A DNA stretch of 64,000 bases from Rheinheimera aquimaris (lineage in GTDB: Bacteria > Pseudomonadota > Gammaproteobacteria > Enterobacterales > Alteromonadaceae): assembly GCF_020531985.1 (NCBI RefSeq), contig NZ_JAJAVQ010000001.1:310001-374000 (forward strand), written 5' to 3'. A program made the translations under genes and the position numbers. A model generated the notes under the pieces. The model was not told the DNA's origin. It did no database searches and was given only the letters and a program-made list of their open reading frames with translations. Below, one piece after another: positions 39,472-46,423 of the stretch (position 1 is its first letter; the number at the start of each line of letters is the position of its first letter).

Positions 39472-40149
39472 ATGGATAAGTTTACCAAACTTATCGTACT
39501 CACAGAGCAAGAAAACCAAAGCAGCATCAGCTTACTGGCGCAGTCTGTCGGTATCACTGTTGAGCAGCGTAGCAAGCTTACCATCTTGTATGGTGGCACA
39601 CTGAAGACCGGCACCTTGCTGGCTTGCCCTTTTCACCATGTTGACTGGAACAAAAAAAACCTCTCCACTGAACTGCAGTACCTGCAGACAAAAGCACCTT
39701 TGTTTTTATTTCAGGCGGAGCGCACTTTAGTTGACCCAATCCAGGCGCTGTACAATGGCATAAGGGGTGTTATCTACCGGGACGAACAACTAGACCGCGT
39801 CCTTACTGCGCTAAAATCGATGATGGATGGCCAGTTATATTATGCCCGCTCAGTGATGTCTGATTTGGTAGATCAGTTACTGTTGCAAAAGTCCGCGGCG
39901 TCAACTGAACAGCTAGTCCTACCCGATAATAACTTACTGACAAAACAGGAGAAACGCATCATTCAGCTGGTGGCTGAAGGTGCCCGGAATAAGGAAATAG
40001 CTCTGACACTGAACATCAGCGCACATACAGTCAAAGCGCACATGTCAGCGATTTTCCGTAAAACCCAATCCCGGAACCGGGTTGAATTACTGCGCTGGGC
40101 ACAACAGCCTGCTCGTCATGAGCCTTCAGCTTCAACAAGGTTGAGCTGA
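39472..40149 (+). CDS. csgD: CsgD-like LuxR-type regulator of curli
   Basis: A 225-residue protein. Residues 1-140 form a receiver-like domain without a recognisable phospho-acceptor Asp triad, as in CsgD. Residues 150-210 are a LuxR helix-turn-helix (LTKQEKRIIQLVAEGARNKE, then NISAHTVKAHMSAIFRK). CsgD activates curli genes, and the adjoining csgBAEFG genes make that the likely role. Unlike E. coli, it is not at the head of an efg operon: it is convergent with csgG and overlaps its end by 34 bases. Confidence 0.85.
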   Translation: MDKFTKLIVLTEQENQSSISLLAQSVGITVEQRSKLTILYGGTLKTGTLLACPFHHVDWNKKNLSTELQYLQTKAPLFLFQAERTLVDPIQALYNGIRGVIYRDEQLDRVLTALKSMMDGQLYYARSVMSDLVDQLLLQKSAASTEQLVLPDNNLLTKQEKRIIQLVAEGARNKEIALTLNISAHTVKAHMSAIFRKTQSRNRVELLRWAQQPARHEPSASTRLS

Positions 40150-40910
40150 TCTTCTGCACGCCAGAAGCCGCGGAGCTGCCCCTGGGTAATAAGTTCAACC
40201 ACCGCCGTTTCCATAGCTTGTTTAACACAATATTGTACCGGCTCATTTGTTGAATACCCGGCCTCGGCTTCTGCCAGACGGTTAAGTGATACGTAGCGGA
40301 ATAAGCCGGCACGAAGCTCCTGGGAAAACACTTTCTTATTGCTCGACACAGACATTAGAACCTGGCCGGTATGCACATCAATCACCCGCAGGTAGACCGT
40401 AACCTGATCCTCCCGGTACAGCTCAGAGGCCCCTATGCCAAAATATTCAGCCCCAATACCCCCTGTACTCAGATTTGTTTCATAGCCAATAATCCCGCCT
40501 TCAAACAGCAAGCGTGCCTCTTTTAACGCTGGCAGCTCAACTGATTTTTTGTTTGAGCCATAAATTTTGCGTTCAGTCAGTAAATTTTGCAGCCCTTCAC
40601 GCTCCATTGGCGCGAACCAGCCTGTTTCAAGCAAGATTTGCGTCAGCATTGAGGTTGCCCCCTGCGTAACGGCAGTAGAAAAACTGGACACGTTGGCCTG
40701 TGGCTTATATTGACCGGTTTGATCCCGAAATGCGTACACTGATACCGGTATAGCGCTGCGCGGCTTTCCTTGCTCACGTAAAGCTTGCATGACAGTGCTG
40801 GGAGCATCAATGCTGGCGGGTGTAATGTTGATATCTAGCTTAGGTATTAATGAGCAACTACCGAGCAGCAACACCATGCAAAGTAAAACTTGTTTTTTAA
40901 TCAGCACCAT
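40116..40910 (-). CDS. csgG: Curli secretion channel lipoprotein CsgG
   Basis: A 264-residue lipoprotein. The lipobox LLGSC places the lipidated Cys at 19, with Ser at +2 favouring the outer membrane. The mature part is CsgG-like (PVSVYAFRDQTGQYKP, LLTERKIY, FEGGIIGYETNLSTGG, VTVYLRVIDVHTGQVL). It forms the nonameric pore that exports curlin subunits. The ATG at 40910 has AGGAGG just upstream, and that ribosome site overlaps the csgF stop codon. The last gene of the operon, it overlaps csgD by 34 bases. Confidence 0.95.
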   Translation of the reverse strand: MVLIKKQVLLCMVLLLGSCSLIPKLDINITPASIDAPSTVMQALREQGKPRSAIPVSVYAFRDQTGQYKPQANVSSFSTAVTQGATSMLTQILLETGWFAPMEREGLQNLLTERKIYGSNKKSVELPALKEARLLFEGGIIGYETNLSTGGIGAEYFGIGASELYREDQVTVYLRVIDVHTGQVLMSVSSNKKVFSQELRAGLFRYVSLNRLAEAEAGYSTNEPVQYCVKQAMETAVVELITQGQLRGFWRAEDQLNLVEAEGS

Positions 40911-40912
40911 TA

Positions 40913-41296
40913 TCAACCTCCTATTGACGGAATAGTGATAACGGTTACTTCACCGGTCTCAATATTGGTTATGTTTACGATGACACTGCCATCTGTGCCA
41001 GAATTCACCTCCACCAGAAACTCACCGGTGTTATACACTCCTTCAACCAGTTCTCCGTCAGCAATCCTGCGCGTCAAAGAGTTGATAATATTGCGCTCAA
41101 GCGCATCCTGAAATTTTTCAACAAAAGATAAGCCGGGAGAGTCGGCTTTATGGGCATTCTGGCTTTGGGCCTTTTGCAGTAAAAAGTTGCCGTTTAGCGG
41201 ATTACCGCCGAAGCTTGGATTAACCGGGGTATAAACAATTTCTGTAGCATGAGCAACACCACAGCTAAGGGTTAGAATCAGCGCGACTAGCTTCAT
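40913..41296 (-). CDS. csgF: Curli assembly factor CsgF
   Basis: A 127-residue secreted protein with a signal peptide (MKLVALILTLSCGVAHA). The N-terminal NPSFGGNPLNG and the LLQKAQSQN block are the CsgG-plugging region of CsgF. The C-terminal VNITNIETGEVTVITIP strand pair fits the family. It couples secretion to surface nucleation by CsgB. The ATG has AAGGAA upstream. Its stop codon lies inside the csgG Shine-Dalgarno region. Confidence 0.93.
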   Translation of the reverse strand: MKLVALILTLSCGVAHATEIVYTPVNPSFGGNPLNGNFLLQKAQSQNAHKADSPGLSFVEKFQDALERNIINSLTRRIADGELVEGVYNTGEFLVEVNSGTDGSVIVNITNIETGEVTVITIPSIGG

Positions 41297-41310: not shown

Positions 41311-41706
41311 TTACAACGGGTCAATTGTTGTGTCGCCAAGCATTTTACCAGCCTGAATATTGGCTAACTCGTTAATGCTTAACAGAATTGCTTGTTCAGC
41401 CATTTGTTTGACATCGTTATAACGGCGACCAAAATAGGTTTGGTATACCCGGGTCTGGTTCATTTCCACCCACAGAAAAGTGCCAGACTGCGGATAAACC
41501 TGCTCGTAAATAACGACTGTGACGCCCTCGGTAGCAGGCATATCGCGCCAGTACCCCGAGTAATAAAAAGCGAAATCTTTACCAAAGCGGGAAATAGAAC
41601 GATCGAGCACCATTCCGCTAAGCTCGATATCATCAGCGTATGACGGTGCCGAATGAAGTTGCACTAGCGGTAACAGGCAACTGAAGAATATTGACAGATA
41701 CTTCAT
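41311..41706 (-). CDS. csgE: Curli secretion specificity factor CsgE
   Basis: A 131-residue periplasmic protein with a signal peptide (MKYLSIFFSCLLPLVQLHSA). ELSGMVLDRSISRFGKDFAFYY and TRVYQTYFGRR are CsgE features. It caps CsgG from the periplasm and selects cargo. The ATG at 41706 fits the signal peptide; a longer frame to 41748 starts at the csgA stop and is less likely. It lies 41 bases after csgA. Confidence 0.9.
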   Translation of the reverse strand: MKYLSIFFSCLLPLVQLHSAPSYADDIELSGMVLDRSISRFGKDFAFYYSGYWRDMPATEGVTVVIYEQVYPQSGTFLWVEMNQTRVYQTYFGRRYNDVKQMAEQAILLSINELANIQAGKMLGDTTIDPL

Positions 41707-41747
41707 AATTAACAGGCGAAGGCAGCACAGCCACCTTCGCCTTAACA

Positions 41748-43226
41748 CTAGTTTTGTACGACAATAGCGGTATTAAAATCACCTACCTGGGTGACAGTTA
41801 TCATATTCCCCTCGCCAGACTGACCGCCCAATACCAGGTTGTCATTACCTTGTTGGGTAATGCTGAGCAACCCGCTGTTGCCTGAAAGAGCGAAGTAACC
41901 GTCATCGCCCGCTATCCAGTTACCTGAACCATTTTGCAGAATGTCCAGCGTATTGCCATTTCCTGAGATTAGCAGATCAACCAGGTTAATATCGCCGTTC
42001 TGCTCAATCGTTACAGTGTTAGCCGTCACTACCGTATCGCTGGTCAGCAACAAGGCGTTAGCGCTACCCGACTGATCAATCATGATGTCGTTGTCATCAC
42101 CGATGATATCGACCTCTGCAGTATTATCATCACCGAGTTGTTGAATGCGCCCCTGGTTTGATGCACCGGACAAGCCCAATGCGGCGGTATTGTTATCACC
42201 CCGGCTGTAAATGATACCCTCGTTAGCGGCACCCGAGAGCAACATTTCGCTGCTGTTACCATCGCCCGTTTGGCGGATCTCGACGTTATGGCCATCGCCT
42301 TCTGTCGCAAAAACAGCATTGTTTACATTGCCATCCTGCCAGACATCAATCTGGTTATCATTGCCAACCATACCAGTTGGGGCATTGACCACATTTCCAT
42401 CACCACGCTGATCAACCAGTAGTAAGTTCTGTTCTCCGGCAAGCGGTTGCAGCAAAAACTCATTCGCATTGCCCGTTTGCATCACGTCGATCAGGTTATC
42501 ATTGCCCGCTACATCTGTGCCGATGAAAACGTTGCCGTCTCCCTGCTGTGATACAAAGAAGCTGTTATTGTCTCCGGTCAGGCCAACAATACCGCCCACA
42601 TTGGCATTGCCAAACTGCTCGGATTCAAAAGTGTTGCGGTTTCCGCTGAGGTTAAACATGCCGGCTTCATTGTTATCTCCGGATTGTAAGCTATACAGCT
42701 GATTGTCATCACCGCTAAAACCCGCATTACTCCAGTTAGCATTACCTTGCTGCTCTATTTCAACAACATTGTTCATGCCTGCAAGATTGACAAAAGCCTC
42801 ACTCGTTTCCCCTACCTGGGTAACGGCTGCGTCATTCATATCACCGGTTATTACCAGCTCAGCTGTATTATAAAAACCGTCCTGAGTCACCGTTGCCGTG
42901 TTTTCATTACCGGCGATATCAACATACGCGATATGCCAGTCAGCCAGTTGCTCAGTTCTGACCTGGTTATCATTACCCGCAACAAAGTTATAGGCTTCTA
43001 ACCAAACCCCATCCTGTTGAACAGAGCTGCTGTTAATGCCTCCGGCCTGGTCCACTGCCGCCAGGTTAATATCGCCACTCTGATGCACCTCTGCCAGGTT
43101 GCCTTCCGCTGCCGCAGTCGAATTCTGATTGATAATAACTTCATTATTTGCCGCAGACAGCGGCGCACTTAACACCAGCGTAATAGCCATTCCCAACATA
43201 TGCTTACGTGGATTTGTCAGCTTCAT
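41748..43226 (-). CDS. csgA: Long curlin-repeat amyloid protein, CsgA-like
   Basis: A 492-residue precursor with a signal peptide (ending SAPLSA near residue 25). The mature part is one curlin-repeat array: about 20 units of roughly 22 residues. Each unit has a strand turning on Q-x-G-x-x-N and a second turning on x-x-G-x-x-N without the Gln. Examples are IDVMQTGNANEF and LLLVDQRGDGNVV. E. coli CsgA (151 residues) has five repeats. The mature protein has no Lys and no Cys, and Asp and Glu far exceed Arg. It ends AIVVQN. The ATG at 43226 has AGGGAGA upstream. Position after csgB and before csgE marks it as the major fibre subunit. Confidence 0.88.
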   Translation of the reverse strand: MKLTNPRKHMLGMAITLVLSAPLSAANNEVIINQNSTAAAEGNLAEVHQSGDINLAAVDQAGGINSSSVQQDGVWLEAYNFVAGNDNQVRTEQLADWHIAYVDIAGNENTATVTQDGFYNTAELVITGDMNDAAVTQVGETSEAFVNLAGMNNVVEIEQQGNANWSNAGFSGDDNQLYSLQSGDNNEAGMFNLSGNRNTFESEQFGNANVGGIVGLTGDNNSFFVSQQGDGNVFIGTDVAGNDNLIDVMQTGNANEFLLQPLAGEQNLLLVDQRGDGNVVNAPTGMVGNDNQIDVWQDGNVNNAVFATEGDGHNVEIRQTGDGNSSEMLLSGAANEGIIYSRGDNNTAALGLSGASNQGRIQQLGDDNTAEVDIIGDDNDIMIDQSGSANALLLTSDTVVTANTVTIEQNGDINLVDLLISGNGNTLDILQNGSGNWIAGDDGYFALSGNSGLLSITQQGNDNLVLGGQSGEGNMITVTQVGDFNTAIVVQN

Positions 43227-43755: not shown

Positions 43756-43933
43756 TTTAATTTATCTAATAATTTTAGTTATTTGCAGATTTAAATTAAC
43801 ATTAACTAACCATTATAAACTAGTACTTATGCCCTATTTTGCATGATTTGTATATTTTTAGTTAACATAAGTGCTATTCATAAAGGTGCTAAAAATAAGC
43901 ATATTATTAACAATTAATTGAATGGGAACTTGT

Positions 43934-46423
43934 ATGACGAAGAAATCACTTTTGGCTGGCGCCATTGCAACAGCGCTATTTTCAGCGACAGCACTGGCTA
44001 GCCCGCCTTCTGATCCAGACAATGCCATTTTAGTCATGTTTAAACCTGGCGTATCAAAACAGGAACGACAGAACCTGATACATAAGCAGGGAGCAAGCCT
44101 GCGCCAGCTGGATGAACAAGGCCGTGACATGAAAATGCGCTATGTCGCTGATGGTCGTATTGTCAAAGTGCTGGTTCCCAAAGGAACGGATAAAGACACC
44201 TTGATCAAACGTTTATCTGTTCACCCTGCCGTAGCAGTTGCAGAGCCGGACTATCCTTTGCACGCACTGGCGACACCGGACGACCCTGACTTCGGGCAAC
44301 TATGGGGCCTGCTCAATACCGGGCAGAACAGCGGCACCGCCGGTGCTGATATCAAAGCGACGGATGCCTGGGATATTTCTACCGGCAGTCACGAGGTCGT
44401 TATTGGCGTTATCGACTCTGGTATGGACTACAACCATCCTGACTTGCTCGATAACCGCTGGGTCAACCCAGGCGATTTACCGGGCAGTACTTATGGCTAT
44501 TCAACATTAAATGCTGAGTTAGATCCGATGGACAGCGACAGCCACGGCACCCACGTTGCCGGTACTATTGGCGCGTCAGGCAACAATGGTATTGGCGTTG
44601 CAGGCGTTAACTGGAGCGTCACGCTATTACCTTGCCAGTTTCTGGGACCAACCGGCGGCAGCACCGCCGGTGCGATCGAATGCATCAACTACTTTACCGA
44701 TTTAAAACTGAACCATGGCGTTAATGTAAAAGCGACAAATAACTCCTGGGGCGGTGGCTCCTACTCCGACACGTTAAGAGCAGCAATTGAATCGGGTGGT
44801 GATGCCGGTATTCTGTTTATCGCTGCAGCGGGTAATAGTGGTGTTGATGCTGACAGCACACCTATGTATCCGGCGGCCTATGACCTTGACACTATCGTCT
44901 CTGTCGCCTCGACAGATCGTAATGACCAGCTGTCAATTTTTACCAGCGGCGCCTCTAACTATGGTGCCGTATCGGTCGATCTGGGCGCACCGGGGTCAGC
45001 AATTCTATCTACAGTCCCAGGTGGCGGCTACGCCAGTTACTCGGGCACTTCTATGGCCTCTCCGCACGTTGCAGGTGCAGCAGCGCTACTGTGGTCGGTT
45101 AATCCTGATATTACGGCTTTGGAAATGAAGAGCATACTAATGGACTCAGGCGACAGCCTGTCTGCTCTGGAAGGTAAAACCGTATCAGGCAAACGACTAA
45201 ACCTGGCAAATGCTATGGTAGATGCAGACCCGACACCTTCATTCAGGTTAAGCATCACACCGAGAAATCAGCAGATCACCGCCGGTGAAAATGCGCAGTA
45301 TACTGTCGATATTGGCAATATCGCTGACTGGATGGGTGAAGTTGCCTTAACTGTTGATGTTGATCCGGCACTTGAAGGCGTAAGCTTATCAGCAGACACG
45401 GCAGAGCCTGGTCAAGCTGTCATGCTTAACATAAACACAACCGCCGAAACCGGCTGGGGCACATATCAGTTCACCGTTACCGGCACCGACACGGCAACCG
45501 GTGAACTGGTGAAGTCAGTTAATGCCAGCCTGGAGATTTTGCCGCAAGGGTTACAGGACTACCCATACAGTAACGACAATGCATCGCCAATTCCGGATAA
45601 CACACCTGAAGGCATCAGCAGCATTATCTCGGTCCCACAATCAGGCAGCCTGTTCGGCGTGAACGTCAGTGTTGACATCACCCATACCTGGCGTGGTGAT
45701 TTAATTGTTGTGCTGCGCTCGCCTGAGGGGACAGAGCACACATTACATAACCGTACCGGTGGCAGTGAAGACAACCTGGTGCAAAGCTGGCAACTTGACA
45801 GCTTTAATGGGGAAGAGATGCAAGGTGACTGGACACTGACGGTATCAGACAATGCTAATCTCGACACCGGGACGTTGAATAACTGGCAGTTAACGCTAAC
45901 AGCATTATCAGACGATACGCCACCGGAACCAGTAGCGCCTGTAGCGGCCTTCAGCTATGCCGCCTCCGGCCTGACAGTAAGCTTTACCGATATGTCGACC
46001 GACGCCAACAACAATATCAGCAGCTACAGCTGGGATTTTGGTGATGGTAATACCTCGCAGGATGCCAACCCACAGCATAGCTATGCTGAGCCCGGCAGTT
46101 ATCAGGTGAGTCTGACAGTCACCGACAGCACCAGCCTTACAGACACCAGCAGCCAAATGATTACGGTATCGGTCGACGATACTGAGCTTGAATTAACACT
46201 GCAACGCAAAGTCCGCACCCGCACCGGTTCAACAATTGTTGACCTGCGCTGGACAGGCACCGCCGAAGCTGTTGACGTGTACCGTGATGGTCAGCTGGTC
46301 GACACCACTGAGGATAATGGACGTTACCGCGACCGCTTTAACTCTATGGCAGAGACCGTAACCTATAAGATCTGTGTTGCAGGCACTGATACCTGTTCTG
46401 CCGAGCTGGACGTTAATTTCTAA
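43934..46423 (+). CDS. Secreted S8 subtilisin-like protease with P domain and PKD domain
   Basis: An 829-residue precursor. A signal peptide (to about residue 23) and a propeptide (to about 115, IKVLVPKGTDK-like core) precede the catalytic domain. The triad is D161 (VIDSGMD), H204 (SHGTHVAGT) and S373 (GTSMASPHVAGA). A proprotein-convertase P domain covers about 541-657 (VSVDITHTWRGDLIVVL), a PKD domain about 667-745 (YSWDFGDGNTS), and a final domain of about 80 residues (RKVRTRTGSTIVDLRW, VDVYRDG, YKICVAG) is a putative adhesion module. The ATG at 43934 follows GGGA. It is divergent from the curli operon and has its own terminator. Confidence 0.93.
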   Translation: MTKKSLLAGAIATALFSATALASPPSDPDNAILVMFKPGVSKQERQNLIHKQGASLRQLDEQGRDMKMRYVADGRIVKVLVPKGTDKDTLIKRLSVHPAVAVAEPDYPLHALATPDDPDFGQLWGLLNTGQNSGTAGADIKATDAWDISTGSHEVVIGVIDSGMDYNHPDLLDNRWVNPGDLPGSTYGYSTLNAELDPMDSDSHGTHVAGTIGASGNNGIGVAGVNWSVTLLPCQFLGPTGGSTAGAIECINYFTDLKLNHGVNVKATNNSWGGGSYSDTLRAAIESGGDAGILFIAAAGNSGVDADSTPMYPAAYDLDTIVSVASTDRNDQLSIFTSGASNYGAVSVDLGAPGSAILSTVPGGGYASYSGTSMASPHVAGAAALLWSVNPDITALEMKSILMDSGDSLSALEGKTVSGKRLNLANAMVDADPTPSFRLSITPRNQQITAGENAQYTVDIGNIADWMGEVALTVDVDPALEGVSLSADTAEPGQAVMLNINTTAETGWGTYQFTVTGTDTATGELVKSVNASLEILPQGLQDYPYSNDNASPIPDNTPEGISSIISVPQSGSLFGVNVSVDITHTWRGDLIVVLRSPEGTEHTLHNRTGGSEDNLVQSWQLDSFNGEEMQGDWTLTVSDNANLDTGTLNNWQLTLTALSDDTPPEPVAPVAAFSYAASGLTVSFTDMSTDANNNISSYSWDFGDGNTSQDANPQHSYAEPGSYQVSLTVTDSTSLTDTSSQMITVSVDDTELELTLQRKVRTRTGSTIVDLRWTGTAEAVDVYRDGQLVDTTEDNGRYRDRFNSMAETVTYKICVAGTDTCSAELDVNF

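Follow-up and report, generated by a model that had tools for sequence, protein, structure and literature searches.

A long acidic curlin of Rheinheimera aquimaris with sheet-wise glutamine asymmetry and glutamine-bearing ends

The window, i.e. the whole stretch of 64,000 nucleotides of Rheinheimera aquimaris DNA analysed here, carries a curli gene cluster in the order csgB-A-E-F-G, with a csgD-like gene downstream (Table 1). The initial annotation had placed a curlin of 492 residues and about 20 repeats at 41748-43226, and both coordinates and length proved exact. The product scores 161.4 bits against the Pfam profile Curlin_rpt (PF07012, cut-off 20.7) over nine stretches, and csgB, csgE, csgF and csgG all exceed their Pfam cut-offs as well; the profile score and the company of these four genes place the protein among the CsgA curlins. 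With the NCBIfam equivalog of E. coli-type CsgA (NF007470), it reaches 93.8 against a cut-off of 160. The CsgE profile was scored on the listed open reading frame (ORF), which starts at a GTG at 41748, and the ATG start behind the csgE coordinates was picked by eye. The best NCBIfam match of the LuxR-type regulator is CsgD, at 70.6 bits and under the cut-off of 250. No further curlin repeats (E ≤ 0.01) were found in the rest of the genome, and a genome search found no CsgC. Thus 41748-43226 is csgA of a curli system with a single gene cluster, and GTDB unites Rheinheimera, Arsukibacterium and Alishewanella in the genus concerned. Divergent from csgB over an AT-rich gap lies a large ORF (43922-46423, + strand), whose product is presumably a secreted protease of the subtilase type. 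According to the accessible text of Dueholm (2012, PMC3521004), Alteromonas and Pseudoalteromonas likewise carry csgBAEFG with csgD downstream on the opposite strand; their CsgA resembles that of the window in being long (up to 529 aa and up to 22 repeats) and encoded in a single csgBAEFG operon.

Table 1. Curli genes and curlin sequence features, in positions of the window.
Feature	Positions	Strand	Basis
LuxR-type regulator, csgD-like, convergent with csgG	39472..40149	+	GerE 60.2 bits
csgG, secretion channel	40116..40916	-	Pfam CsgG 264.4 bits
csgF	40913..41296	-	Pfam CsgF 109 bits
csgE	41311..41706	-	Pfam CsgE 113.7 bits
Intercistronic stem-loop csgA/csgE, 13-pair stem	41714..41742	-	Folding of the spacer
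csgA, major curlin, 492 aa	41748..43226	-	ORF call; Pfam Curlin_rpt; strand segmentation
Strand 41, putative C-terminal cap, minor sheet, Gln, final strand	41754..41774	-	Q 40/40
Strand 39, putative C-terminal cap, minor sheet, Gln	41820..41840	-	Q 40/40
Array strands 4-38	41841..43034	-	Major sheet Gln; minor sheet (odd strands 5-37) mostly Leu/Val/Ile
Strand 28, lone conserved break of the Gln ladder	42204..42224	-	S 36, T 3 of 39
Strand 3, putative N-terminal cap, minor sheet, Gln	43047..43067	-	Q 40/40
Strand 1, putative N-terminal cap, minor sheet, Gln	43125..43145	-	Q 36/36
csgB-like nucleator, 133 aa	43248..43649	-	Pfam profile; Gln in all 8 segmented repeat strands

The first 26 residues of CsgA are probably a signal peptide (cut site chosen by eye), which gives a mature chain of 466 aa. 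By segmentation with the Gln position left unscored, the mature array comprises 41 strands, or 20.5 repeats; the procedure tends to place spurious strands in signal peptides and breaks up certain insertions, e.g. in the first strand of L194. The 11-residue period of the initial annotation is mostly regular, being kept in 32 of 40 spacings, with 12, 13, 15 or 16 residues in the remainder. At strand position 7, every second strand carries Gln. We call the sheet of the Gln strands major and the other minor; in the latter, position 7 is mostly hydrophobic (Leu, Val or Ile). Strand order, together with the published model of R15.5, served to assign sheets and inward positions. The alternation is real, since shuffling the strand string of the window's CsgA 2000 times never produced as much alternation, but it is not strict as had been claimed: Ser replaces Gln in strand 28 of the major sheet (residues 335-345), and adjacent strands all carry Gln at both ends of the protein (strands 1-4 and 38-41). 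Because the strand count is odd, the first and last strands share the minor sheet by strand order, which is the half-repeat arrangement of Sleutel (2023, PMC10192328, accessible text). The Gln closing both motifs a and b, by which the CS class is defined there, is found only in the terminal strands.

The mature chain contains 63 Asp and Glu, six Arg, and neither Lys nor Cys, with a calculated charge of about -57 at pH 7, and the Gln-rich character ascribed to the CsgB-like neighbour was also borne out (Table 1). At outward positions the acidic fraction in the window's CsgA is 0.31 on Gln strands and 0.24 on non-Gln strands, a modest effect. Among 85 related and hence not independent sequences, with the strands sorted by Gln, the Gln strands have the more acidic outward face in 82 and the non-Gln strands the more hydrophobic one in 84. 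A more acidic Gln face and a more hydrophobic opposite face would give a fibre with two unlike sides.

The AlphaFold2 monomer model of CsgA is a beta-solenoid with strands where expected (pLDDT 94.3, pTM 0.87), and a further monomer model is a likewise confident solenoid (pLDDT 91.5). A Foldseek search against the PDB gave nothing at E ≤ 0.001; a second look with VIA-align returned mostly beta-helix proteins with Z up to 16.5, which is informative as to the solenoid only. By sequence, the nearest solved relative is the R15.5 CsgA (PDB 8c50, profile E 2.7e-64). The one-sided Gln ladder and acidic surface previously proposed for the fibre follow from the sequence and fit the predicted solenoid; at both ends, however, the ladder would be two-sided.

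The rarity implied by the initial annotation does not hold, and the many similar CsgA proteins that it had regarded as counter-evidence do exist. Within the genus, csgF was found in 24 of 31 genomes, the window's own included, and the CsgA of all 24 share the position-specific pattern. A recent repeat expansion is ruled out: repeats pair with their orthologues by position, and L079 (Alishewanella-type), alone among the 24 members, lacks one 22-residue repeat. In the family sample csgF occurs in 38 of 147 genomes, and a long alternating CsgA is encoded at 29 of the 34 family csgF loci outside the genus; as to the other five, L088 has a shorter and weaker CsgA, L102 is truncated at a contig end, and L109, L118 and L119 gave none. 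Genera with the form are Idiomarina, Alkalimonas, Alteromonas, Pseudoalteromonas and, in part, Shewanella. A long CsgA was found at 60 of the 80 named loci and a fragment at L155, and at 19 Shewanella loci (L158-L169, L173, L175, L181, L185, L186, L188 and L189) the locus DNA searched contained no curlin, also after a loose rescan of three of them. No curlin was found at 9 of 40 order-level loci, and in the class-level sample csgF occurs in just 7 of 369 genomes. These samples, which focus on relatives of the window's CsgA, yielded 115 distinct long-curlin ORFs with at least 24 strands and a score of at least 80; of these, 85 reach both 36 strands and an alternation of 0.75, and they are the sequences whose outward faces were compared above. 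No significant alternation was seen in the Shewanella type of L230, L233 and L242, where about 74% of strands carry Gln, or at the extra-family loci L120-L123, where 56-77% do.

The form of about 20 repeats is common in the family, so the length of the window's protein is not exceptional; the accessible part of a 2025 review gives a range of 3 to 52 with a differing distribution (PMC12822426). Nor is its Lys content or its acidity exceptional. Among the 40 sequences of the alignment A2 described below, Lys is absent from 18 and occurs once in 14 (counted with part of the signal peptide in some rows), and Asp and Glu make up 11.5-19.8%. Since the same form is widespread across the samples, and long or acidic CsgA proteins have been published (PMC3521004 and PMC10192328, accessible text), the long, acidic, alternating curlin is ordinary in kind and shared by most of the bacterial relatives. 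Several loci encode more than one curlin. For example, two long curlins are found in L153 (Aliidiomarina maris) and in L150 (an Idiomarina metagenome-assembled genome), of which one is mostly alternating, and in the other the alternation lies chiefly in the second half. Genomes G604 and G745 each have one csgF locus with curlins and another without (L229 with L230, and L232 with L233).

The distribution of Gln along the array was followed in two alignments: A2, with the window's CsgA and 39 relatives, and A3, with 27 sequences of the Alteromonas/Pseudoalteromonas type. Together they comprise the window's CsgA and 66 of 84 listed relatives, pre-screened for an alternation above 0.7 and 36-48 strands. 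In the major sheet of A2, 758 of 798 cells are Gln, and 39 of the 40 exceptions fall in one Ser/Thr strand. In the 17 interior strands of the minor sheet, only 7 of 678 cells are Gln, and 560 are Ala, Val, Ile, Leu, Met or Phe. The first two and last two strands of the same sheet are Gln in 156 of 156 cells, position by position; in the case of strand 1, the remaining four of the 40 rows start past it owing to where the rows were cut. In A3 both terminal strands show an invariant Gln column, the first strand being read off this column of the alignment, and a single cell of the interior minor strands is Gln. By strand order both lineages begin and finish on the minor sheet with an odd strand number, and the Gln-bearing minor strands per end number two in A2 and one in A3. 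Meanwhile, the genus set of 24 had been chosen by csgF alone, with no screen for alternation. In its own numbering, even strands 6-38 lack Gln and strands 4, 40 and 42 have it in 24/24; strand 2 has it in 15/24, a figure attributed to a gap shift, the A2 counterpart being Gln wherever reached.

A contrast is provided by the family f201, for which 39 loci were fetched, 38 analysed and 34 found to have CsgA-like ORFs, 42 in all. Here the C-terminal strand belongs to the major sheet. Adjacent terminal Gln strands are absent in 40 of the 42, the exceptions being L260 and one of the two L268 ORFs. Clear alternation (at least 0.8) near the C-terminus is limited to 25 of the 42, and the terminal pair is missing from 23 of these 25. 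Because the automatic classifier was noisy, N-termini were read by hand; all 34 readable cases start with a non-Gln strand, 8 of 42 being unclear. In L266, L269 and L271, Gln lies one residue further on. Together, f201 against A2 and A3 amounts to one contrast between lineages. L245, L246, L250, L259 and L278 of f201 have two or three csgA-like genes per locus. The final strand carries Gln in all 109 curlins compared, f201 among them, which leaves room for a different cause of the C-terminal cap. In the family f183 (L240 and L243) the start is ambiguous, and the Ferrimonas-type L172, L184 and L191 have C-terminal runs of Gln strands.

Previous work suggests how such ends might function. In the scheme established for curli, which by analogy probably holds here, CsgA would be secreted unfolded, nucleated by CsgB and stacked as a two-sheet beta-solenoid fibre. 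In the accessible text of Sleutel (2023, PMC10192328), half-repeat subunits, including R15.5, are described as stacking head to tail through a 180-degree screw, seamlessly because of their centrosymmetric core, and this argument is repeated in the accessible part of PMC12345197. As the strand number of the window's CsgA is odd, head-to-tail stacking would need the same screw, which would set the major sheet of one subunit upon the minor sheet of the next. With the asymmetric interior, each joint would then pair a hydrophobic column with a Gln column. Gln in the end minor strands would instead place Gln on Gln in both sheets at the joint, and would also match the Gln-rich CsgB, with ladders continuous towards it; even-strand subunits would have no need for end Gln. 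It is thus conceivable, and a reading that we take seriously while holding it short of probable, that the end glutamines keep both Gln ladders unbroken across joints with a 180-degree turn. More generally, and tentatively, curlins with a one-sided ladder might keep Gln at the minor-sheet ends if their strand number is odd and not if it is even; the sequence would then predict whether subunits stack by translation or by a 180-degree screw, and in the latter case the ladder would switch face at every joint. Cryo-EM of R15.5 could not place the subunit register because the repeats look alike (PMC10192328, accessible text). If the end Gln do mark the joint, the sequence would allow curli subunit stacking to be predicted, point changes would offer a test of it, and mixed or two-faced curli materials could be designed accordingly; if not, the long, acidic, Lys-poor alternating curlin is still the normal form in these bacteria.

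It is also possible, although here too we hesitate, that the terminal Gln strands serve docking to CsgB or binding to the CsgG/CsgF/CsgE secretion machinery rather than the joints between subunits. At the listed loci nearly every CsgB strand carries Gln (exceptions include L088, L109, L117, L120 and L121), and Gln in the last strand of every curlin compared would agree with such a role. The segment that targets CsgG in E. coli is N-terminal (PMC10192328, accessible text), and the N-terminal strand of the window's protein could be an export signal of this kind. However, the number of Gln-bearing minor strands per end varies by lineage, as seen between A2 and A3, and f201 mostly lacks minor-sheet caps despite having Gln-rich CsgB-like proteins. 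Alternatively, the pattern may have no special function, the array being inherited from one ancestor and the terminal repeats keeping an older all-Gln form. Between the window's CsgA and seven distant A2 members, repeats are orthologous by position, with an identity of 0.30 against 0.13 for non-orthologous pairs and the best match at the same index in 86 of 133 cases; shared ancestry therefore explains much. As a full account it is nevertheless unlikely, for the Gln or non-Gln state is near-invariant at identities to the window's CsgA of only 37-75%, suggesting selection at each position. Lastly, that the alternation is the ordinary two-motif repeat of E. coli with nothing lost is highly improbable: curlin repeats normally span 22 residues and comprise motifs a and b, but the published consensus has Gln in both (PMC10192328, accessible text), and strand counts contradict the idea, all segmented repeat strands at five short CsgA loci (L204-L208) carrying Gln. 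Overall, we are fairly confident of the main explanation, which combines the csgA identity, the sheet-wise asymmetry of Gln, the conserved Gln ends and a possible role of these ends at subunit joints.

Compared with known systems, the window's CsgA shares the curlin repeat and the operon function with that of E. coli, which differs in having five full repeats and Gln in both motifs (PMC10192328, accessible text). R15.5 from Pontibacter korlensis is similar in being long, very acidic and a beta-solenoid with a half-repeat end; in contrast to the window's protein, where Gln occurs in both sheets only at the ends, it is centrosymmetric with Gln in both motifs, as far as the accessible text goes (Sleutel 2023, PMC10192328). 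In the degenerate class D of Sleutel, as accessible, the Gln of motif b may be absent as in the window's CsgA; that class is marked by incomplete motifs and/or long insertions and variable core residues, whereas the loss seen here is regular and conserved by position. Dueholm (2012, PMC3521004) described two minimal motifs per repeat as common in CsgB and not in CsgA, and its accessible text, figures excepted, holds no statement on sheet-wise Gln loss or on a return at the ends. Sheet-wise loss with retention at the ends was likewise not described in the literature searched, which covered text alone and few subscription papers. Therefore, the one fresh detail appears to be the position-exact Gln asymmetry that stops at the subunit ends.

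A separate feature is the stem-loop between csgA and csgE. Stems of at least 7 pairs were found in 65 of 72 distinct csgA-csgE spacers, with a mean z of -3.03 and z below -2 in 53, and the stem sequences vary widely among spacers. A search with Rfam yielded no match within the cluster. The spacer of L079 has no strong stem in its first 75 bases, and a GC-rich inverted repeat was seen by eye beyond. Control segments after csgB (25/66 stems, z +0.52), in the csgA 3' end (35/71, z -0.92) and after csgE (31/62, z -0.37) lack a similar excess, but they are mostly coding sequence and thus an impure test of intergenic DNA. Among the matches listed in a literature search for hairpins in curli operons there was no curli report. 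The accessible text of Dueholm (PMC3521004) infers that individual proteins of an operon like this one can be regulated only at translation or later; the hairpin would act earlier, on the transcript. It is plausible that the stem-loop serves as a leaky terminator or a 3' stabiliser and so lifts csgBA above the export genes, which makes it a candidate control of the subunit-to-machinery ratio.
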